Origin: Pedobacter sp. Bi126
GTDB lineage: Bacteria; Bacteroidota; Bacteroidia; Sphingobacteriales; Sphingobacteriaceae
NCBI RefSeq assembly: GCF_918698245.1
Contig: NZ_CAKKMS010000003.1
Span: 930,001 to 994,000, forward strand
Direction: 5' to 3'
Length of the DNA stretch: 64,000 nucleotides
Every line of letters begins with the position of its first letter. The stretch's first letter is position 1. The notes under the pieces are model-generated. The model saw only the letters and a list, made by a program, of their open reading frames with translations. It had not been told where the DNA came from and did no database searches. Position numbers and translations under genes: made by a program. Below, piece after piece: positions 3,657 to 32,791 of this stretch.

Positions 3657-5168
3657 ATGATTTTAAACAAAGAAAATTTAGCAAACATTAACGGCGACAA
3701 GGTTACTAAACCAAGCGCCGAAATTTTGGCTTTACCGGAAAAAGTAATTCAGTTTGGAACAGGCGTTTTATTACGTGGTCTGCCTGATTATTTTATTGAT
3801 AAGGCCAACCAGAAAGGTATTTTTAACGGACGTATTTTAGTGGTTAAATCTACTTCAAAAGGCGGGGCAGATGCATTTTCGAAACAGGATAATTTATACA
3901 CGCTTTGTGTAAAGGGTATCGAAGATGGTGTTAATGTTGAAGAAAATTCAATCAACTCTTCTATTAGCCGAGTGCTGTCGGCTTCGCAAGATTGGGCCGA
4001 AATTTTAAAAGCGGCCCACCAGCCAGAAATGCAGGTTGTAATTTCGAATACAACTGAAGTTGGGATTGTTAAAAGCGAAGATAAAATAACTGATAATCCA
4101 CCACAATCTTATCCAGGAAAATTACTTGCATTCCTGCACGAGAGATACACTGCTTTTAATGGTTCGGCCGAAAGTGGAATGGTGATTGTTCCAACGGAAT
4201 TAATCAGTGATAATGCTGATAAATTGAAAGAAATTTTATTAGATCTGGCCATCCAGAATAAATTGGGATGGGATTTCGAAAACTGGTTAAAAACGGCCAA
4301 TCATTTCTGCAAAACTTTGGTTGATCGGATTGTTCCGGGAAAACTTCCTGAAGCCGAACAAAAAGCGATTGAACGTGAACTGGGTTATGAAGATGAACTC
4401 ATGATTATGGCCGAACCTTTCAGGCTTTGGGCCATCGAATCGTCAAGCGAAAAAGTGAAGGAAATTTTATCTTTTGAAAAGGCTGATAAGGGGGTTTTTA
4501 TTGTTCCATCGATCGATAAATTTAAAGAGCTAAAACTCCGTTTACTTAACGGTACGCACACCATTAGCTGTGGATTGGCCATTTTAGCTGGCTTTAATAC
4601 CGTAAAAGAGGCTATGGCGAATGAAGATTTTTCAGCCAATGTGTTAAAACTGATGAAAGATGAAATTGCCCCTGTTGTAGTAAATGAAGATATTACCTAT
4701 GACGAAGCGATTGCCTTTGCAGAAAGCGTAATCGACCGTTTTAGCAATCCGTCCTTAGAACACCAGTGGCAAGCCATAACGCTAAACTTCACCTCAAAAA
4801 TGCAGATGCGTAACATGCCGTTAATCAGAAGGTATTACGCTTTAAAAAATGAAGTACCTCAACTTACCGCTTTAGGTGTGGCAGCATATATCCTTTTTAT
4901 GAATGTGAATAAAGATGGTGATACTTACACGGCCAGCGCAAACGGAAAAACCTTTCCGATACAGGATGAATTTGCAGAAATTTTATACGAATACTGGAAA
5001 AACCCTGAAACGGTTGTAGATAATACCCTTGGCGACAGACGTCTTTGGGATAAAAACTTGAATAACTATCCTGGCTTTAACGCGGCCGTAAAATCTTACG
5101 TTGATTTATTACAGAACAAGGGTGCAAAAGAAACTTTAAGTAACTTGCATTCAGAAAGAACAATTTAA
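3657..5168 (+). CDS. uxaB: Tagaturonate reductase (altronate oxidoreductase)
   Basis: A 503-residue member of the polyol-specific long-chain (mannitol) dehydrogenase family. It has an N-terminal Rossmann domain beginning VIQFGTGVLLRGLPDYF and a C-terminal helical domain with LRLLNGTHTISCGLAILAG, which contains the family Lys/Asn/His-type catalytic region. UxaB reduces D-tagaturonate to D-altronate with NADH (EC 1.1.1.58), the second cytoplasmic step of galacturonate breakdown. One base separates its stop from uxaA, so the two are co-transcribed and perhaps translationally coupled. The closely related UxuB (fructuronate) is possible, but the uxaA neighbour favours UxaB. Confidence 0.92.
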   Translation: MILNKENLANINGDKVTKPSAEILALPEKVIQFGTGVLLRGLPDYFIDKANQKGIFNGRILVVKSTSKGGADAFSKQDNLYTLCVKGIEDGVNVEENSINSSISRVLSASQDWAEILKAAHQPEMQVVISNTTEVGIVKSEDKITDNPPQSYPGKLLAFLHERYTAFNGSAESGMVIVPTELISDNADKLKEILLDLAIQNKLGWDFENWLKTANHFCKTLVDRIVPGKLPEAEQKAIERELGYEDELMIMAEPFRLWAIESSSEKVKEILSFEKADKGVFIVPSIDKFKELKLRLLNGTHTISCGLAILAGFNTVKEAMANEDFSANVLKLMKDEIAPVVVNEDITYDEAIAFAESVIDRFSNPSLEHQWQAITLNFTSKMQMRNMPLIRRYYALKNEVPQLTALGVAAYILFMNVNKDGDTYTASANGKTFPIQDEFAEILYEYWKNPETVVDNTLGDRRLWDKNLNNYPGFNAAVKSYVDLLQNKGAKETLSNLHSERTI

Positions 5169-5169
5169 A

Positions 5170-6816
5170 ATGGTTACTAGAATTTTAAAAATCCATCCCA
5201 ACGATAACGTACTTGTTGCCCTGCAAAACCTGGCAAAAGGCGAAACCGTTATTTACGATGGACAGGAATATATTTTACAGGATGATATCCAGGCAAAGCA
5301 TAAGTTTTTTATGCAGGATATGAATGCAGGTGATCACATTATTATGTATGGCGTACTGGTGGGGAAAGCGCAGCATTTCATCCTAAAAGGCGGCTTAATG
5401 GATACTGAAAACACTAAACACGCATCAGATCCTTACGAGTTTCGCCCGTATCATTACGAATGGCATGCACCTGATGTTTCTAAATTTGAAGGCAGAACCT
5501 TTAATGGTTATATTCGTAGTGATGGCCGCGTGGGAACTGCAAATTATTGGTTGTTTATTCCGACCGTTTTCTGCGAAAACCGCAACCTGGATGTGATCCG
5601 TGAAGCCTTGCACAATGAATTGGGTTATGCCGTAACCGATAAATACAAATCTTATGCCCATGAACTGGTTGAGGCTTATAAAAACGGCGAAATCCTGGAA
5701 GAAGCTGATCCAAGTTCAATTGGAATTGCAAATCCATCAGCCAACCGTGTTTTTAAAAATGTTGATGGCATTAAATTCTTAAATCACCAGGGTGGTTGCG
5801 GTGGTACCCGTCAGGATGCTGCTGTATTAAGTAAATTATTGGCTGCTTATGCCGATCATCCTAACGTTGCGGGCGTTACCGTATTGAGCTTAGGGTGCCA
5901 GAACCTACAGGTTAAAGATTTTATGGACGATTTAAAACACCGTAGTCCAAATTTCGATAAACCTTTATTCATTTTTGAACAACAGCAATCGCAAAGCGAA
6001 GAACAACTGGTTAAAGAAGCCATTAGAAAAACTTTTATTGGTTTAACTGAAATTAATAAAATCGAACGTCAGCCAGCGCCTTTAAGCAAACTGGTTTTAG
6101 GTGTTAAATGTGGCGGTAGCGACGGTTTTAGCGGAATTAGCGCTAATCCGGCAGTAGGTTATACGTCTGATTTGCTGGTGGCTTTAGGTGGCACTGTACT
6201 TCTTGCCGAGTTCCCTGAACTTTGCGGCGCAGAACAACAGTTAATCGACCGTACAAAAGATGAAACCGCAGCACGTAAATTCATCCAATTGATGACTGCT
6301 TACAATCAATCTGCAGAAAATGTAGGCTCAGGATTTTTCATGAATCCATCGCCTGGAAATATAAAAGATGGTTTGATTACCGATGCGATTAAGAGTACCG
6401 GTGCAGCCAAAAAAGGCGGAACATCGCCAGTGGAAGATGTTTTAGATTATACTGAGCCTGCTACAAAACCAGGATTAAATTTAGTTTGTACTCCTGGAAA
6501 TGATGTGGAGGCTACTACTGGAAAAGCAGCATCTGGAGCAACATTAATCTTGTTTACTACAGGTTTGGGCACACCAACCGGAAACCCGGTTTGTCCAACC
6601 ATTAAGGTTTCAACCAATAATGCATTAACCAAACGTATGGGCGATATTATCGATATCAACTGCGGCCCGGTAATCGAAGGCGAAAAAACCATCGAACAAA
6701 TGGGAGAAGATATACTGGAGTATTGCATTAAAGCAGCCAGCGGCGAAGTAATTCCTAAAGCGGTATTGCTTAATCAGGATGATTTTATTCCATGGAAACG
6801 GGGAGTTAGTCTTTAG
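5170..6816 (+). CDS. uxaA: Altronate dehydratase
   Basis: A 548-residue altronate/galactarate dehydratase. An N-terminal SAF-like domain of about 100 residues is followed by the catalytic domain with HQGGCGGTRQDAA near residue 206 and VKCGGSDGFSGISANPA near residue 312; these Cys-rich loops hold the iron centre in the family. The enzyme dehydrates D-altronate to 2-keto-3-deoxygluconate (EC 4.2.1.7). It follows uxaB by one base. The product feeds kdgK about 1.7 kb downstream. It is somewhat longer than the E. coli enzyme, as is usual in Bacteroidota. Confidence 0.93.
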   Translation: MVTRILKIHPNDNVLVALQNLAKGETVIYDGQEYILQDDIQAKHKFFMQDMNAGDHIIMYGVLVGKAQHFILKGGLMDTENTKHASDPYEFRPYHYEWHAPDVSKFEGRTFNGYIRSDGRVGTANYWLFIPTVFCENRNLDVIREALHNELGYAVTDKYKSYAHELVEAYKNGEILEEADPSSIGIANPSANRVFKNVDGIKFLNHQGGCGGTRQDAAVLSKLLAAYADHPNVAGVTVLSLGCQNLQVKDFMDDLKHRSPNFDKPLFIFEQQQSQSEEQLVKEAIRKTFIGLTEINKIERQPAPLSKLVLGVKCGGSDGFSGISANPAVGYTSDLLVALGGTVLLAEFPELCGAEQQLIDRTKDETAARKFIQLMTAYNQSAENVGSGFFMNPSPGNIKDGLITDAIKSTGAAKKGGTSPVEDVLDYTEPATKPGLNLVCTPGNDVEATTGKAASGATLILFTTGLGTPTGNPVCPTIKVSTNNALTKRMGDIIDINCGPVIEGEKTIEQMGEDILEYCIKAASGEVIPKAVLLNQDDFIPWKRGVSL

Positions 6817-7006: not shown

Positions 7007-8407
7007 ATGAAACCTTTTTTAGACGAAAATTTTCTTTTGCAAAGCAAAACTGCTGAAAAGCTTTATCACAATTTTGCAAAATCATTGCCGATTATCGACT
7101 ACCATAATCACCTTATTCCAGAGCAGATTGCCAATAACACTCAGTTTGCCAACATCAGTCAGGTTTGGCTTGCCGGCGATCATTACAAATGGAGAGCCAT
7201 GCGTGCCAACGGTGTTGATGAAAAATACATTACAGGTGTAGGATCAGATTATGAAAAATTTGAGAAATGGGCAGAAACCGTTCCCTATACTTTACGCAAT
7301 CCTTTATACCACTGGACACATCTGGAACTTCAACGCTATTTTGGTATAACTGATTTACTTTCTGGTAAAACGGCACAGAAAATTTTCGACGAATGTTCTG
7401 CAAAATTACAAACACCTGAATATTCTGTACGCGGTTTGCTGGCCAAAATGAATGTAGAAGCCGTTTGTACTACCGATGATCCTTTGGATAGTTTAAACTA
7501 CCACCAGCAATTGGCAAGAGAAGGCGCAAACCTTAAAATGTTGCCGGCCTTCCGCCCGGATAAAGCGATGAACAGCGACGATATTGAAGGTTTAAATGAA
7601 TATATTGACAAACTGGAAAGTGTTGTAGATAAAACAATCAGTAGCTTTCAGGATTATATCGATGCGTTGAAAAGCCGTCACGATTACTTTGCGGCAAATG
7701 GCTGTTCAGTTTCTGACCATGGTTTAGAGCAGATTTATGCTGAAGATTATACAGAAGCAGAAATTTCAGCAATCTTTGATAAAATCCGCAGTAAACAACA
7801 TATTTCTTACGAGGAGAACCTTAAATTTAAATCGGCCATGCTGATTTATTTTGCAGAATGGGATCACGAAAAAGGCTGGGTGCAACAATATCACCTGGGT
7901 GCATTGCGAAACAATAATGCCCGGATGTTAAGGCAATTAGGACCTGATACCGGCTGGGATTCTATTGGCGATTTTAGTCAGGCCCGAATGCTTTCTAAAT
8001 TCTTAAACCGTTTAGATAACCAGGATAAACTGGCAAAAACCATTATTTATAATCTTAATCCAGCTGATAATGAATTAATTGCAACGATGATCGGAAACTT
8101 TAACGATGGTTCGGTTGCGGGTAAAGTGCAATTTGGTTCGGCATGGTGGTTTTTGGATCAGAAAGATGGCATGATCAAACAATTAAATGCATTATCAAAC
8201 ATGGGTCTGCTAAGCCGTTTGGTGGGTATGCTTACCGATTCGCGCAGTTTCCTCTCTTTTCCCCGTCACGAATATTTCAGAAGGATCGTTTGTAACCTCT
8301 TTGGAGAAGACATTGAGAACGGCGAATTACCTAACGACTTGGAGTGGGTTGGCAAAATTGTTCAGGATATTTCGTACTTTAACGCAAAAAATTACTTTAA
8401 ATTTTAA
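7007..8407 (+). CDS. uxaC: Uronate isomerase (glucuronate/galacturonate isomerase)
   Basis: A 466-residue member of the amidohydrolase superfamily, full length for UxaC. The N-terminal metal-binding motif IIDYHNHL is present, as is the C-terminal family signature LVGMLTDSRSFLSFPRHEYFRR. UxaC converts D-galacturonate to D-tagaturonate and D-glucuronate to D-fructuronate (EC 5.3.1.12), the first cytoplasmic step of the pathway encoded here. Its position after uxaBA, with a palindrome-rich gap in between, fits a uronate operon. No fructuronate-specific genes (uxuA/uxuB) are seen in the window. Confidence 0.94.
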   Translation: MKPFLDENFLLQSKTAEKLYHNFAKSLPIIDYHNHLIPEQIANNTQFANISQVWLAGDHYKWRAMRANGVDEKYITGVGSDYEKFEKWAETVPYTLRNPLYHWTHLELQRYFGITDLLSGKTAQKIFDECSAKLQTPEYSVRGLLAKMNVEAVCTTDDPLDSLNYHQQLAREGANLKMLPAFRPDKAMNSDDIEGLNEYIDKLESVVDKTISSFQDYIDALKSRHDYFAANGCSVSDHGLEQIYAEDYTEAEISAIFDKIRSKQHISYEENLKFKSAMLIYFAEWDHEKGWVQQYHLGALRNNNARMLRQLGPDTGWDSIGDFSQARMLSKFLNRLDNQDKLAKTIIYNLNPADNELIATMIGNFNDGSVAGKVQFGSAWWFLDQKDGMIKQLNALSNMGLLSRLVGMLTDSRSFLSFPRHEYFRRIVCNLFGEDIENGELPNDLEWVGKIVQDISYFNAKNYFKF

Positions 8408-8521
8408 CCAAAATAGGGCTTTAAAGAGGTATTTCGTTGGAATCAAATCATTTCAATCGTTTTCCTTCCATTTTCATAGCGTTGCAGAAAACAGCATGAA
8501 ATACGCCGATTAGATACAAAA

Positions 8522-9577
8522 ATGAGCACCCAAATATTCGCTTCATCAAAAAAAGGAGAAAAAGTTTTAAGCTTTGGTGAAATACTTTTGCGCATCTGTC
8601 CCGATATGGACGGCCAGTGGTTAAAAGAAAATAAACTACCATTTTATGTGGGCGGTGCGGAGCTCAATGTAGCAACAGCGCTGGCACTTTGGAATGTTCC
8701 TTCAACTTACTTATCGGCTGTGCCTGATAATTCGGTAACCAGAGAGATTGTAGATTATCTGGATGCACGGAACATTGATACCACACCAATGGTTTACCAT
8801 GGCGAACGTTTGGGCTTATACTATCTTCCAAAAGGGAAAGACCTTAAAAATGCAGGTGTAATTTACGACAGGGCAAATTCTGCCTATGCAGATTTAAAAG
8901 TTGGCCAGATTAACTGGGATGAAGTTTTTGAAGGTGTGAGCTGGTTTCATTTCAGCGCAATATGTCCGGCGATAAATCAATCTATTGCTGATGTTTGCTT
9001 AGAAGCTTTAAAAGCGGCCAGTGGGAAAAATATTACCATTTCACTCGATTTAAACTATCGCGCCAAGCTTTGGAAGTATGGTAAAGATCCGATTGATGTG
9101 TTACCAGAACTGGCTCAATATTGCACCCTGATTATGGGCAATGTGTGGGCCGCCAATAAAATGTTGGGCACTGCACTTCACGAAGATTTAACACCAACAG
9201 AGGGTTATGCAAAGGAAACGTTACTGCAACAGGCAACAGATACTTCTAAAGAAATATTAAGTTTGTTTCCGGCTTGCAAGGCCGTTGCAAATACATTCAG
9301 GTTCGATCATGGTAAAGGCATCCGGTATTATACTTCCATTTATACCGCTGATGAATTAACGGTTTCTGAAGAATATGTTTCAGAAGAAATTTTAGATAAG
9401 GTGGGTAGTGGCGATTGTTTTATGGCGGGCCTGATTTATGGCTTTTACAACCAGTTGTCGGCCAAAGAAACCTTGAATTTTGCCACCGCAGCGGCATACG
9501 ATAAATTATACATTCCAAGCGATGCTACAACCAGTACTGTAGCCGATATAGAAAAAAGAATAATACGCAATGATTAG
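8522..9577 (+). CDS. kdgK: 2-keto-3-deoxygluconate kinase (PfkB family)
   Basis: A 351-residue PfkB-family sugar kinase. The N-terminal VLSFGEILLRICP and FYVGGAELNVATALA segments and the C-terminal signature DKVGSGDCFMAGLIYG, with the catalytic Asp, are clear. KdgK phosphorylates 2-keto-3-deoxygluconate to KDPG with ATP (EC 2.7.1.45). Its last eight bases overlap the start of the aldolase gene, so the two are a translationally coupled pair that carries out consecutive steps. The 114-base gap upstream shows no recognised element. Confidence 0.92.
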   Translation: MSTQIFASSKKGEKVLSFGEILLRICPDMDGQWLKENKLPFYVGGAELNVATALALWNVPSTYLSAVPDNSVTREIVDYLDARNIDTTPMVYHGERLGLYYLPKGKDLKNAGVIYDRANSAYADLKVGQINWDEVFEGVSWFHFSAICPAINQSIADVCLEALKAASGKNITISLDLNYRAKLWKYGKDPIDVLPELAQYCTLIMGNVWAANKMLGTALHEDLTPTEGYAKETLLQQATDTSKEILSLFPACKAVANTFRFDHGKGIRYYTSIYTADELTVSEEYVSEEILDKVGSGDCFMAGLIYGFYNQLSAKETLNFATAAAYDKLYIPSDATTSTVADIEKRIIRND

Positions 9578-10232
9578 CAACAAGCACAAAATTTTAGATG
9601 CCATTTTAGAGCAGGGCATGTTACCCCTTTTTTACCAGGATAGCGAATCGGGTAGCGTAGAAATATTACGCACTTTGTATAAAGCTGGCGTTCGTGTTTT
9701 CGAATATACCAACCGGGGTAAATCGGCCCTGCCGAACTTTAAAAAGTTAAAAGAAATCCGGGATGCCGAAATGCCTGATCTTTATTTGGGTATCGGAACC
9801 GTTAAAACGCCTGCAGATGCAAATGCATTTATCGAAGCCGGAACAGATTTTATTGTGGCACCAATCGTAAATCCGGCAGTTGCCGAAATTGCAAACAAAA
9901 TTGGTATGCTTTGGATCCCTGGATGTATGACGCCGACTGAAATCAGTGTCGCTCAAGAGCACAAAGCCATGCTGATCAAAATTTTCCCTGCCAATATTTT
10001 AGGCCCTGAATTTATTTCATCAATTAAAGATCTTTTCGCCGGACAGCTGTTTATGCCAACTGGTGGCGTAGAAATTAATGCCGACAACCTAAAAACCTGG
10101 TTTAAATCAGGCGTTTGTGCCGTAGGTATGGGCAGCAAATTAATCAGTAAAGATGTGATGAGCAAAGGTCTTTATGAGGAGTTATTCGACAATACAAAAT
10201 TAGCGCTTGACTTAATTCAGCAGAGTAAATAA
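9570..10232 (+). CDS. eda: KDPG aldolase
   Basis: A 220-residue class I aldolase of the KDPG/KHG type. The Schiff-base lysine is Lys137 in the motif MLIKIFPAN, and the phosphate-binding PTGGV and GMGSKLI segments follow. It splits 2-keto-3-deoxy-6-phosphogluconate into pyruvate and glyceraldehyde 3-phosphate (EC 4.1.2.14). It starts inside the end of kdgK and ends 20 bases before exuT. The product glyceraldehyde 3-phosphate is the expected substrate of the GapN-like enzyme downstream. Confidence 0.93.
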   Translation: MISNKHKILDAILEQGMLPLFYQDSESGSVEILRTLYKAGVRVFEYTNRGKSALPNFKKLKEIRDAEMPDLYLGIGTVKTPADANAFIEAGTDFIVAPIVNPAVAEIANKIGMLWIPGCMTPTEISVAQEHKAMLIKIFPANILGPEFISSIKDLFAGQLFMPTGGVEINADNLKTWFKSGVCAVGMGSKLISKDVMSKGLYEELFDNTKLALDLIQQSK

Positions 10233-10252: not shown

Positions 10253-11692
10253 ATGAACCAATCCAAAACAAGCAAATACAGATGGACCATATGTTTGCTG
10301 TTATTTCTAGCTACAACCATAAATTATTTAGACAGGCAGGTACTTTCGTTAACCTGGACAGATTTTATTAAACCAGAATTTCATTGGGATAATAATGATT
10401 ATGGAAATATAACTGCACTGTTCTCTATTTTCTATGCAATATCGATGCTTTTTGCAGGTCGTTTGGTTGATAAACTGGATACCAAAAAAGGCTTTTTATG
10501 GGCAATAGGCGTTTGGTCTGTTGGAGCCTGTCTACATGCCTTCTGTGGCATTGCAACTGCCGGGATCATCAATGGAAACTGGTTTGTAGGATTTGAGGGT
10601 GCTAAAGAAGTTATTGCACGTGTTAACGATACCGGATTAATTGTTTCGGTAAGTGTTACCCTGTTTATTTTTGCCCGTTTTGTATTGGCTGTTGGAGAGG
10701 CGGGAAATTTTCCTGCTGCGATTAAAGCTACTGCAGAGTACTTTCCTAAAAAAGACAGGGCGTTTGCTACCAGTATTTTTAATGCAGGAGCTACGGTAGG
10801 TGCGTTAGCTGCACCGATTACCATCCCTTTTATTGCAAAAGCTTACGGATGGGAAATGTCGTTCATTATTATCGGTGCACTTGGTTTTGTATGGATGGGG
10901 CTATGGGTGTTTGTATATAACAAACCAGAGTTGCATAAAAGAGTTAGTCCTGAAGAGTTGGCTTATATTCAGCAGGATGTGATCAATGATCGTAAAATGG
11001 CTGATTATGTAGAAGAGACTAAAGAAAAAGTTTCGTTTATCGACTGTTTTAAATATAAACAAACCTGGGCTTTTGCTTTTGGTAAATTTATGACAGATGG
11101 GGTGTGGTGGTTCTTTTTATTCTGGACACCTGCCTATTTAAAATCTGTTTATGGAATGGATTCTACGCAAAGTGCACTTCCTTTATTTGTACTTTATATG
11201 ATTACCTTACTGTCTATTATCGGCGGATGGTTACCAACCTATTTCGTTGATAAAAAAGGCATGAACCCGTATGAAGGTAGAATGAGGGCAATGCTGATTT
11301 TTGCATTTTTCCCGCTTTTAGCCTTAGCGGCACAACCTCTTGGGCACATTACCTATTGGATTCCGGTAATCATTATTGGCATTGCAGGTGCGGCTCACCA
11401 GGCATGGTCGGCAAATATATTTTCAACCGTAGGCGATATGTTTCCTAAAAAGGCAATTGCCACCATTACGGGTATTGGCGGTATGGCAGGCGGATTAGGC
11501 TCTTTCATTATCAATAAAGGCTCTGGTTTATTGTTTGATTATACAGGCAAAAATCAGATTGTTTTTATGGGTTTTAAAGGTGAGGAAGCAGGTTATTTTA
11601 TTATTTTCTCTATCTGTGCGGTATGTTATCTTATCGGTTGGACTGTAATGAAAACCTTAGTCCCAAAATATAAAGTAATCGAACTAAAATAA
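10253..11692 (+). CDS. exuT: MFS hexuronate transporter
   Basis: A 479-residue major facilitator superfamily protein with about 12 hydrophobic segments, of the anion:cation symporter group. NYLDRQVLSLTWTDF in the first segment and the AGRLVDKLDTKKGF loop match ExuT-type hexuronate permeases. It would bring galacturonate or glucuronate across the inner membrane by proton symport. It lies 20 bases after the aldolase and is followed by a strong hairpin terminator, so it probably ends the uronate operon. Confidence 0.88.
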   Translation: MNQSKTSKYRWTICLLLFLATTINYLDRQVLSLTWTDFIKPEFHWDNNDYGNITALFSIFYAISMLFAGRLVDKLDTKKGFLWAIGVWSVGACLHAFCGIATAGIINGNWFVGFEGAKEVIARVNDTGLIVSVSVTLFIFARFVLAVGEAGNFPAAIKATAEYFPKKDRAFATSIFNAGATVGALAAPITIPFIAKAYGWEMSFIIIGALGFVWMGLWVFVYNKPELHKRVSPEELAYIQQDVINDRKMADYVEETKEKVSFIDCFKYKQTWAFAFGKFMTDGVWWFFLFWTPAYLKSVYGMDSTQSALPLFVLYMITLLSIIGGWLPTYFVDKKGMNPYEGRMRAMLIFAFFPLLALAAQPLGHITYWIPVIIIGIAGAAHQAWSANIFSTVGDMFPKKAIATITGIGGMAGGLGSFIINKGSGLLFDYTGKNQIVFMGFKGEEAGYFIIFSICAVCYLIGWTVMKTLVPKYKVIELK

Positions 11693-11808: not shown

Positions 11809-13434
11809 TTGAGTACATCGCTAAACCTCGAAAGTATTTTCGTTGAAGAGAGCCAGATTCCAGATGAATTTAGGCTCAAGGAAGAAATCAATCAAAAAGA
11901 GTTTCTTTCAAATGGAGAGATGAAACCATGGAATGGACCATTTAATGAAGTGTTTTCTCCGGTATGCGTAAAAACCCCCGAAGGCTTAAAACGAAAGCGT
12001 ATAGGTAGTTTTCCTGTTTGTACAGAAAAAGAGTCGACAGAAGCTTTAGATGCAGCTGTAGCCGCTTATGATAATGGCCGCGGACAATGGCCAACCATGA
12101 GCGTTGCTGATCGGATTAGCTGCGTAGAAAACTTCACTCATAAAATGATTGAGCAAAAAGAAATAGTTGCGAAATTGATTATGTGGGAGATCGGTAAATC
12201 CTACGCCGATTCGGTTAAAGAATTCGACCGCACGGTTGAGTACATCTATGCCACCATTGATGCACTGAAAGATATCGACAGGCAATCGTCACGTTTCGAA
12301 ATAGAGCAGGGAATTGTGGCACAGGTTCGTCGTTCTCCACTGGGTGTGGTGCTTTGTATGGGGCCGTTCAACTATCCGTTAAACGAGACTTTTACGACGC
12401 TTATTCCAGCTTTGATTATGGGCAATACGCTTTTATTCAAACCACCTAAGCATGGGACCTTATTGCACTATCCTTTATTAGAGGCTTTCCGTTCCAGCTT
12501 CCCTAAAGGTGTTGTAAATACCATTTATGGCCGTGGCAATACCATTGTGCCAGGACTAATGAAATCTGGAAAAATTAATGTACTTACCTTAATCGGATCG
12601 AGTAAAGTAGCCAACGAACTGAAAAAACTGCATCCTAAAGTAAACCGTTTAAGGGCAATTTTAGGTTTGGATGCTAAAAACGCTGCAATCATTACTAAAG
12701 ATGCCAATCTGGATTTAGCGGTTTCTGAAACGGTTCTGGGTTCGCTTTCTTTTAACGGACAGCGTTGTACCGCGATTAAAATCGTTTATGTTCACCGCAG
12801 TTTAGCACAGGAGTTTTTAAAACGTTTATCTGCAGAAGTAGAGAAACTGAAATTTGGTATGCCATGGGAGAAAGGCGTAAACCTCACACCGCTGCCCGAG
12901 CTGAACAAACCTGAATACTTAAAAGAATGTATTGATGATGCAGTTTCGCACGGCGCTAAAGTGATCAATAAAAATGGCGGACAAACTTTAGAAACTTTCG
13001 TTTATCCAGCTATTATGTATCCGGTAAACAGCAATATGAAACTATACCGCGAAGAGCAGTTTGGTCCGATCGTTCCAGTTGTTCCGTTTGATGATCTGGA
13101 AGAACCTATCGAATATTTAATTGGTTCGCCACATGGCCAGCAGGTGAGTATTTTTAGCAACAACGCTGCGGTAATTTCTTCGTTGATCGATCCTTTGGTT
13201 AACCAGGTAAGTCGTGTAAATATCAACTGCCAATGTCAACGCGGACCAGATGCTTTCCCTTTTACCGGTCGTAAAGACAGTGCTGAAGGAACGCTTTCTG
13301 TAGTGGATGCATTGCGTTCGTTCTCGATCCGTTCTTTGGTAGCAACCAAATTTACAGACGATAATAAAAAGTTGTTGAACGAAATTGTTAAAGGAGATGA
13401 TTCGAACTTTTTAAGTACGAAGTATATTTTTTAA
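11809..13434 (+). CDS. gapN: GapN-like NADP-dependent glyceraldehyde-3-phosphate dehydrogenase (ALDH superfamily), atypical active site
   Basis: A 541-residue aldehyde dehydrogenase nearest to the non-phosphorylating GAPDH group. The nucleophile is Cys320 in SFNGQRCTAIK and the oxyanion Asn is in MGPFNYPLNE. The segment that normally reads LELGGK reads LGLDAK here, so Gly286 stands exactly 34 residues before the Cys, where ALDHs keep the general-base Glu. The start is a TTG at 11809; the next in-frame ATG is 37 codons further in and would cut off N-terminal sequence typical of the group. Placed after the KDPG pathway, it would oxidise glyceraldehyde 3-phosphate to 3-phosphoglycerate and make NADPH. 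That role is inferred and is weakened by the missing Glu. Confidence 0.72.
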   Translation: MSTSLNLESIFVEESQIPDEFRLKEEINQKEFLSNGEMKPWNGPFNEVFSPVCVKTPEGLKRKRIGSFPVCTEKESTEALDAAVAAYDNGRGQWPTMSVADRISCVENFTHKMIEQKEIVAKLIMWEIGKSYADSVKEFDRTVEYIYATIDALKDIDRQSSRFEIEQGIVAQVRRSPLGVVLCMGPFNYPLNETFTTLIPALIMGNTLLFKPPKHGTLLHYPLLEAFRSSFPKGVVNTIYGRGNTIVPGLMKSGKINVLTLIGSSKVANELKKLHPKVNRLRAILGLDAKNAAIITKDANLDLAVSETVLGSLSFNGQRCTAIKIVYVHRSLAQEFLKRLSAEVEKLKFGMPWEKGVNLTPLPELNKPEYLKECIDDAVSHGAKVINKNGGQTLETFVYPAIMYPVNSNMKLYREEQFGPIVPVVPFDDLEEPIEYLIGSPHGQQVSIFSNNAAVISSLIDPLVNQVSRVNINCQCQRGPDAFPFTGRKDSAEGTLSVVDALRSFSIRSLVATKFTDDNKKLLNEIVKGDDSNFLSTKYIF

Positions 13435-31249: not shown

Positions 31250-32791
31250 TTACAAATCAAATTTTATCCCCTGTGCTAAAGGCAGCGTGTTCGAATAATT
31301 GATGGTATTGGTTTGTCTGCGCATATAAGCCCTCCAGGCATCAGACCCGCTTTCCCTGCCACCGCCTGTTTCTTTTTCACCGCCAAAAGCACCGCCAATT
31401 TCTGCGCCTGAAGTACCAATATTTACATTGGCTATGCCACAGTCAGAGCCTTTAGCCGATAAGAATTGCTCTGCCTCTCTTAAATTCAAAGTCATAATGG
31501 CCGATGATAATCCTTGAGGAACGGCGTTTTGCAAAGCAATGGCCTCGTCTAATGTTTTATACTTAATCAGGTATAAAATCGGCGCAAATGTTTCGTGCTG
31601 AACAATCTTAAAATCATTCTGAACTTCGGCAATACATGGTTTTACGTAACACCCGCTTGTATAGGCATCGCCCGATAAAACGCCGCCATCTACCACAAAA
31701 TTGCCGCCCTCTTCCTTGCATTTTGCAATCGAATCTAAGTATGCTGCAACCGCTTCGGTATCAATCAGTGGTCCCACATGGTTATTTTGATCTAAGGGAT
31801 CTCCAATACGCAACTGTCCGTAAGCTTTAACCAGTTTAGCGGTAAAAGCATCATATACACTTTCGTGGATAATTAGCCTCCTGGTAGAGGTACAACGCTG
31901 CCCCGCGGTACCAACAGCACCGAATACCGCACCGATTAAACTCATATCTAAATCAGCATGTTCTGAAATGATAATGGCATTATTACCACCAAGTTCAAGT
32001 AAGCTTTTTCCTAACCTTGCGCCTACTGCAGCACCGACTGCCTTACCCATGCGCGTCGATCCGGTAGCAGAAATTAAAGGAATGCGGCCATCATTTGTCA
32101 TGAGTTCGCCAACTTCCCTATCGCCTAAAACCAAGTTGCAAACCCCTTCAGCGATATTGTTATCTTTAAAAACCTTTGCAATAATTTGTTGACAGGCGAT
32201 TGCGGTTAGCGGTGTTTTTTCTGATGGTTTCCAGATGCAAACATTACCACAAACCAATGCCAAAGCGGTATTCCAGCTCCAAACCGCTACAGGAAAATTA
32301 AATGCAGAAATAATACCTACAATCCCTAACGGATGCCATTGTTCGTACATGCGGTGGCTTGGGCGTTCGCTGTGCATGGTTAAACCGTAAAGCTGCCTGG
32401 ATAAACCTACTGCAAAATCGCAGATATCGATCATTTCCTGCACTTCACCAAAACCCTCCTGCAAACTTTTCCCCATCTCGTAAGAAACCAGGGTGCCTAA
32501 CGCATCTTTGTTTTCACGTAAGGCATCACCAAACTGGCGCACAATTTCTCCTCTTTTTGGAGCCGGAACCGTACGCCATGCTGTAAATGCTTCCTGCGCT
32601 TGATGTACAACAGCATCATAATCAGCAGCACTTGCAACTTTTGCCGAAGCAATCAGTTTGCCATCAACGGGAGAAAAACTTTCTAATGTATTTGTATTAA
32701 GTTCACCGCCCCAATTGCTGCCCGTACTATAAGCGGCATTACTTGCATTAATGCCCAGTTTATTTAAAATGGATTGAATATCTGTAGTCAT
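31250..32791 (-). CDS. amaB: ALDH7-type aldehyde dehydrogenase (probable alpha-aminoadipic semialdehyde / piperideine-6-carboxylate dehydrogenase)
   Basis: A 513-residue aldehyde dehydrogenase with the general-base Glu in LLELGGNNAIII and the nucleophilic Cys in GTAGQRCTSTRRL, 34 residues apart. The segments SHRMYEQWHPLGIVGIISAFNFPVAVWSWN and GAEIGGAFGGEKETGGGRESGSDAWRAYMRRQT are those of the ALDH7 (antiquitin) group, which oxidises alpha-aminoadipic semialdehyde in lysine breakdown. No other lysine-catabolic gene is in the window, so the exact substrate is inferred from family only. It serves as a useful internal comparison for the GapN-like protein. Confidence 0.8.
   Translation of the reverse strand: MTTDIQSILNKLGINASNAAYSTGSNWGGELNTNTLESFSPVDGKLIASAKVASAADYDAVVHQAQEAFTAWRTVPAPKRGEIVRQFGDALRENKDALGTLVSYEMGKSLQEGFGEVQEMIDICDFAVGLSRQLYGLTMHSERPSHRMYEQWHPLGIVGIISAFNFPVAVWSWNTALALVCGNVCIWKPSEKTPLTAIACQQIIAKVFKDNNIAEGVCNLVLGDREVGELMTNDGRIPLISATGSTRMGKAVGAAVGARLGKSLLELGGNNAIIISEHADLDMSLIGAVFGAVGTAGQRCTSTRRLIIHESVYDAFTAKLVKAYGQLRIGDPLDQNNHVGPLIDTEAVAAYLDSIAKCKEEGGNFVVDGGVLSGDAYTSGCYVKPCIAEVQNDFKIVQHETFAPILYLIKYKTLDEAIALQNAVPQGLSSAIMTLNLREAEQFLSAKGSDCGIANVNIGTSGAEIGGAFGGEKETGGGRESGSDAWRAYMRRQTNTINYSNTLPLAQGIKFDL

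Follow-up and report, generated by a model that had tools for sequence, protein, structure and literature searches.

The open reading frame at 11809-13434 of the window, a 64,000-nucleotide stretch of Pedobacter sp. Bi126 DNA, encodes a member of a coherent and widespread sister clade of non-phosphorylating glyceraldehyde-3-phosphate dehydrogenase (GapN), in which the catalytic acid has probably been moved, not lost. Judged from the aligned sequences, a hydrolytic, NADP-type relative of GapN with a rebuilt active site is a fairly probable reading, the base being Asp or Glu at residue 288, with Glu193 as a helper or an alternative. Table 1 gives the positions of the gene, its key codons, and its neighbours.

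Table 1. Genes and active-site codons of the window
Feature	Position	Strand	Details
GapN-sister aldehyde dehydrogenase	11809..13434	+	541 aa, TTG start
Arg141 codon	12229..12231	+	aligned with S. mutans GapN R103; 126/126 family, 24/169 others
Asn188 codon	12370..12372	+	oxyanion-hole Asn; 126/126 family, 169/169 others
Glu193 codon	12385..12387	+	invariant, 5 residues past oxyanion Asn; S. mutans GapN L159
Gly286 codon GGT	12664..12666	+	general-base Glu position (S. mutans GapN E250); Gly 118, Ser 8 of 126
Asp288 codon GAT	12670..12672	+	S. mutans GapN G252 position; Asp 108, Glu 18 of 126
Arg319 codon	12763..12765	+	aligned with S. mutans GapN R283; 126/126 family, 58/169 others
Cys320 codon TGT	12766..12768	+	catalytic nucleophile; 125/126, exception L126
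Arg478 codon	13240..13242	+	aligned with S. mutans GapN R437; 126/126 family, 16/169 others
Glu493	13285..13287		covaries with residue 288
uxaB, tagaturonate reductase	3657..5168	+	NCBIfam above cut-off
uxaA-type altronate/galactarate dehydratase	5170..6816	+	below galactarate equivalog cut-off; Pfam
uxaC, uronate isomerase	7007..8407	+	NCBIfam above cut-off
kdgK-like sugar kinase	8522..9577	+	below NCBIfam cut-offs; Pfam
KDPG aldolase	9570..10232	+	below NCBIfam cut-off; Pfam
MFS transporter, hexuronate type by context	10253..11692	+	NCBIfam, Pfam
ALDH7-type protein	31250..32791	-	NCBIfam L-piperidine-6-carboxylate dehydrogenase, 844.8 vs 730 bits cut-off

PF00171 is the sole domain found in the protein by a Pfam search (320.7 bits), with the classical GAPDH domains PF00044 and PF02800 absent. 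No NCBIfam family exceeds its cut-off among the matches listed (25 of 39), and the ALDH6 model TIGR01722 gives 170.3 bits, below its cut-off of 448.5. The best PDB matches are GapN structures (3prl, 2esd, and 1euh; E about 1e-66), GapN chains are also top-ranked in a Foldseek search with the predicted model, and identity to GapN in the structure alignments is 27-29%. The AlphaFold2 model, which took 60 close relatives as input, has a mean pLDDT of 78.5 and is weak at the active site, with values below 50 at residues 157-176, 279-284, and 478-509. Within the genome of the window, this protein is the only match of S. mutans GapN (E<=1e-60). Its chain of 541 residues exceeds the 475 of S. mutans GapN, and the position of the TTG start is common to the Pedobacter loci L035-L061, L054 excepted. 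The viral contigs searched contained no relative of the protein, and a scan of viral contigs with the ALDH7-type protein of the window returned zero matches.

A gap-free HMM alignment places Gly286 on Glu250 of S. mutans GapN and Asp288 on Gly252, the latter being near the base position and off it, as the first-pass annotation had described. Its observation that Gly286 lies exactly 34 residues upstream of Cys320, with no alignment slip, is borne out by the same alignment and by the recurrence of this spacing in 126/126 relatives; the Glu-Cys distance is likewise 34 in 149 of the 161 other aldehyde dehydrogenases (ALDHs) that have the Glu. A hand count agrees that the ALDH7-type protein carries its Glu 34 residues before the Cys, in a motif reading LELGGNN.

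For the site survey, all ALDH-like open reading frames of the collected loci, mostly Bacteroidota, were aligned to one HMM, and rows with more than 330 aligned residues were kept and identical ones removed, leaving 295 unique sequences of 326. In the family of 126 distinct members, which was selected by the 286/288 residue pair itself, site 286 is always Gly or Ser and residue 288 always Asp or Glu, changing the motif from LELGGK to L[GS]L[DE]AK; all sequences read with more than 50% identity to the query carry this pair. Among the 169 other ALDHs, which include two GapN reference segments, Glu is kept at site 286 by 161. An acid at 288 occurs in 126/126 family members versus 1/169 others; of the earlier suggestions, use of the Asp by the enzyme agrees best with this distribution. 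The combinations of residues 286, 288, and 320 across the 295 rows are E-G-C (158), G-D-C (100), G-E-C (18), S-D-C (7), and L-G-C (7), with E-S-C (2), Q-G-C (1), S-D-G (1), and E-E-C (1) as rarer types. The acid at 288 accompanies loss of the Glu in every row but one, a divergent ALDH beside a Hymenobacter paralogue of the family, and eight ALDH6-like rows have also lost the Glu at 286 while keeping Gly at 288. Since Gly or Ser occupies site 286 in each relative examined, a sequence error at this site is excluded; a pseudogene reading is likewise ruled out, the trait being common to all relatives read.

Individual members show further variation. The paralogue at 7989-9608 of locus L126, on the Hymenobacter volaticus plasmid NZ_CP095065.1, has its catalytic Cys replaced by Gly (GQRG) and is likely a pseudoenzyme; about 0.7 kb upstream of it lies the ALDH with the motif LEMEGVN, the only row of the 295 with Glu at both 286 and 288. 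A gene copy of Sphingobacterium multivorum NCTC11343 (L097, 10001-11620) has two in-frame stop codons within the matched region; either the gene is disrupted or the stops are sequencing errors. The 18 of 126 members with Glu288 come from one group of genomes (family code f4). Glu493 is present in 108/108 Asp288 members and 0/18 Glu288 members, a covariation that amounts to one event and no proof of contact, because the Glu288 rows form one clade.

Most of the remaining catalytic apparatus is retained. Asn188, Lys211, and Glu416 are invariant (126/126), and Tyr189 is kept in 125/126 members. Arg141, Arg319, and Arg478 are the aligned counterparts of three GapN arginines presumed to bind the phosphate of the substrate. 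The family thereby shares with S. mutans GapN (1EUH) and B. halodurans GapN (3PRL) the fold, the Cys, the Asn, the cofactor Lys, the three Arg, and the Tyr after the Asn. It differs from the S. mutans enzyme in having Gly or Ser for Glu250, Asp or Glu for Gly252, Glu for Leu159, and mostly Thr or Leu for Lys163 (residue 197). Position 214, which we take to be a cofactor-related site distinguishing NADP from NAD, is Lys in 114, Arg in 6, and Gln in 6 of the 126 members, never an acid, and Glu in 87/169 others; this absence of an acid is consistent with NADP use.

The residues around the catalytic centre are changed as well. Residue 196 is mostly Thr (97/126), as is residue 197 (105/126), the S. 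mutans counterparts being Ser and Lys, and residue 496 is Leu in 126/126 members, Glu in 106/169 others, and Gln in S. mutans GapN. In hSSADH, the catalytic Glu belongs to a network that also includes Lys214 and Glu515 (PMC11681614). By our own mapping, these two residues correspond to positions 197 and 496, where the Lys and Glu are mostly replaced, and the usual relay therefore appears to be missing in the family. With both relay positions changed, the active site may work quite differently.

Comparison with the Pyrobaculum enzyme AlDHPyr1147 would place the new acids in the active site. Its catalytic Glu253 (PMC5121451) lies 3.1-3.8 A from the Cys sulfur and hydrogen-bonds the backbone nitrogen of Gly255, two residues along; the substrate is ringed by Ile160, Lys163, Lys164, and other residues, and ND2 of Asn155 holds a Cys-bound water. 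Matching by hand count, with Asn155 taken as the oxyanion Asn, puts Gly255 at the position of Asp288 and the substrate-contacting Ile160 at that of Glu193, so that both acids would occupy first-shell positions. Glu193 is found in 126/126 members and is family-specific. It is a serious alternative to Asp288 as the hydrolytic base, with residue 288 serving a structural or cofactor role and the reaction proceeding as in GapN. Besides the invariance of this Glu at a site that is Leu in S. mutans GapN, and the contact of its AlDHPyr1147 equivalent with bound substrate (PMC5121451), the Asp/Glu exchange tolerated at 288 is unusual for a base of fixed reach. Nevertheless, we consider this arrangement rather unlikely: Glu193 should face the substrate and not, as the ordinary base does, the cofactor, and residue 288, two residues from that base, is equally invariant as an acid. 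What favours Asp288 as the base is its location on the cofactor side, two residues away from the ordinary one, together with the space that Gly or Ser at 286 leaves for it.

The genomic setting points to triose phosphate metabolism. In the window, uxaB, uxaA, uxaC, a kdgK-like kinase, KDPG aldolase, and an MFS transporter precede the gene in this order, in agreement with the first-pass view that it ends a uronate pathway; the KDPG aldolase presumably splits its substrate into glyceraldehyde 3-phosphate and pyruvate. Flanks of up to 10 kb contain at least two of uxaA, uxaB, uxaC, kdgK, and kdgA in 64 of 80 Bacteroidota loci, the best 80 of at least 576 and, as nearest relatives, biased to Pedobacter and Sphingobacterium; the other 16 of these 80 have fewer than two. 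Gene order varies among loci, which argues for a functional link between the gene and the uronate genes.

On Pseudomonadota plasmids, 10 of 14 loci have a glycolytic, Entner-Doudoroff, zwf, or glycerol gene as a neighbour (L122, L123, L124, L127, L128, L129, L137, L139, L140, and L141), and four have none (L125, L133, L138, and L142). Locus L123 reads tpiA-gpmA-pyk-GapNL-ppc-eno, where GapNL marks the family gene, L124 reads glpK-glpD-pyk-eno-tpiA-GapNL-gpmI, L140 has a similar gene set, and L122 and L128 contain edd-eda. For the set of L124 to connect glycerol with pyruvate, the GapNL product must convert glyceraldehyde 3-phosphate to 3-phosphoglycerate. A homology search confined to the 115 loci found no pgk or gap homologues in them; on control loci, each query recovered its own locus. 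These neighbourhoods fit the conversion of glyceraldehyde 3-phosphate to 3-phosphoglycerate. The Cupriavidus plasmid loci L123, L137, and L140 carry partial glycolysis sets, with ppc, pyk, and eno adjoining the gene, and L137 additionally carries otnK and otnC.

Other settings occur in f4, which we guess to be Flavobacteriaceae. In L184 (G226) and L186 (G103), the neighbours of the gene belong to the biosynthesis of branched-chain amino acids and of arginine, not to uronate metabolism; partial Pfam typing identifies argininosuccinate synthase and genes for branched-chain amino acids in both, along with a semialdehyde dehydrogenase and a threonine dehydratase in L184. An IlvD/Edd-like gene is present in 6 of 20 loci of one set, and NADPH supply is a guess at the role in the f4 neighbourhoods. 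At the genome level, the genome of the window contains two classical GAPDH genes (PF02800, elsewhere in the genome) and one PGK. Genome-wide replacement of PGK in Bacteroidota is ruled out by its presence in 42/42 carrier genomes, and NADPH supply in place of zwf leaves no signal, zwf occurring in 19/42 carriers, an intersection tallied by hand from listings, versus 135/296 genomes.

The family is broadly distributed. At E<=1e-60, 42 of 296 genomes of the phylum match the protein, with 54-95% identity outside the window's own genome, and 29 relatives from phylum genomes and the window all read L/M-[GS]-L-[DE]-A-K-N followed by GQRC. A scan of further genomes confirmed at least 576 relatives, the best 80 of which were kept; genera among the matches listed include Pedobacter, Sphingobacterium, Pontibacter, Segetibacter, Arcticibacter, Mucilaginibacter, and Rufibacter. 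A plasmid protein search extended the family to Burkholderia, Cupriavidus, Acinetobacter, Variovorax, Paraburkholderia, Pseudomonas, and Microvirga at 58-64% identity, with LGLDAKN in 8/8 Pseudomonadota family loci read. The set of 126 spans Bacteroidota together with Burkholderia, Cupriavidus, Acinetobacter, Pseudomonas, and Microvirga, and the combination of Gly or Ser at 286 and an acid at 288 belongs to the whole clade, across two phyla. In the literature searched, outside which most subscription journals lie, neither the strings LGLDAK, LGLEAK, and LSLDAK nor a characterised family member was found.

A quick tree of 63 rows, with both motif positions masked, recovers the family as monophyletic (support 100) on a long stem of 1.94 changes per site, with S. 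mutans and B. halodurans GapN as its sister (SH-aLRT 98). The grouping persists in a reduced tree of 46 rows, from which four long rows were dropped and in which 10 of 23 family representatives were retained (SH-aLRT 98.5). The GapN side of both trees consists of these two references, plant ALDH11 being left out. Together with the PDB matches, the trees uphold the original GapN-like label, and the protein is best filed as a GapN sister clade, not as GapN proper, because the general-base Glu was tested and is absent. The long stem, the low identity in structure alignments, and the ilv and arg genes around certain members would suit an enzyme whose true substrate is some other aldehyde, phosphorylated or charged, with the GapN label reflecting mere kinship. 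This is highly improbable, as the three Arg and the Tyr of GapN are retained and adjoining genes produce or consume triose phosphates in two phyla.

Loss of the Glu could instead mean acyl transfer, as the first-pass annotation had also suggested. With CoA as the acceptor, as in ALDH6, the product would be 3-phosphoglyceroyl-CoA, and with phosphate it would be 1,3-bisphosphoglycerate. ALDH6A1 with Asn in place of the Glu yields CoA esters (PMC10650815), and GapN Glu268Ala forms a thioacyl adduct (PMC10599462); the Glu is also missing from the eight ALDH6-like rows. ALDH6/IolA, the CoA-acylating methylmalonate-semialdehyde dehydrogenase, resembles the family in lacking the general-base Glu and in the following Ala-Lys-Asn, but it has Gly and no acid at 288, belongs to another tree branch, and makes a CoA ester. 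Similarly, the laboratory mutant of S. mutans GapN with Ala for Glu (2ESD) has no Glu at the base position and its Cys chemistry survives, but it has no compensating acid and forms the thioacyl adduct. A grouping of the family with CoA-acylating ALDH6 is rejected on the 46-row set (p-AU 0.007), the ALDH6 model score is far below its cut-off, the tpiA-gpm-eno-pyk neighbourhoods without pgk require free 3-phosphoglycerate, and the neighbourhoods offer no support for the CoA or phosphate partners needed. Acyl transfer is accordingly disfavoured and, on this evidence, improbable.

Hydrolysis with a moved base is the simplest reading of the invariant new acids, and the enzyme may still work like GapN. 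With the rest of the catalytic set kept, the clade should possess another route of deacylation. Glyceraldehyde 3-phosphate from the neighbouring KDPG aldolase would be oxidised directly to 3-phosphoglycerate, producing NADPH. Following attack of Cys320 on the aldehyde, the oxyanion would be held by Asn188 together with the backbone NH of the Cys, and hydride would pass to NADP+. Hydrolysis of the thioester by water would come next, with no Glu at its usual place: residue 288 (an Asp, in f4 a Glu), two positions farther along the chain, would provide the carboxylate, for which Gly or Ser at 286 would give space. The invariant Glu193, on the substrate side, would act as a helper or an alternative base. 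The reaction, the cofactor, and the identity of the base acid are in this scheme what we infer from the residues and neighbourhoods described above.

Hydrolytic ALDHs are regarded as having the general-base Glu almost without exception. Its replacement by Ala strongly lowers the rate of ALDH deacylation (PMC5121451) and, as E268A in 2-aminomuconate semialdehyde dehydrogenase, hinders hydride transfer too (PMC4286809), while its role in Cys activation is described as still debated (PMC5121451). The finding also bears on annotation: most annotated Pseudomonadota plasmid records examined name the family proteins NADP-dependent glyceraldehyde-3-phosphate dehydrogenase, although these lack the residue credited with driving hydrolysis. 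We assign about even chances to the proposition that the general base has been relocated in an entire clade of hydrolytic ALDHs, with an extra Glu gained in the substrate pocket and the relay lost, giving a second acid-base machinery of independent origin, unlike ALDH6, whose loss of this Glu went with a turn to CoA. A clade that lacks the Glu and has two invariant acids elsewhere in the first shell constitutes a natural experiment on the function of this Glu.
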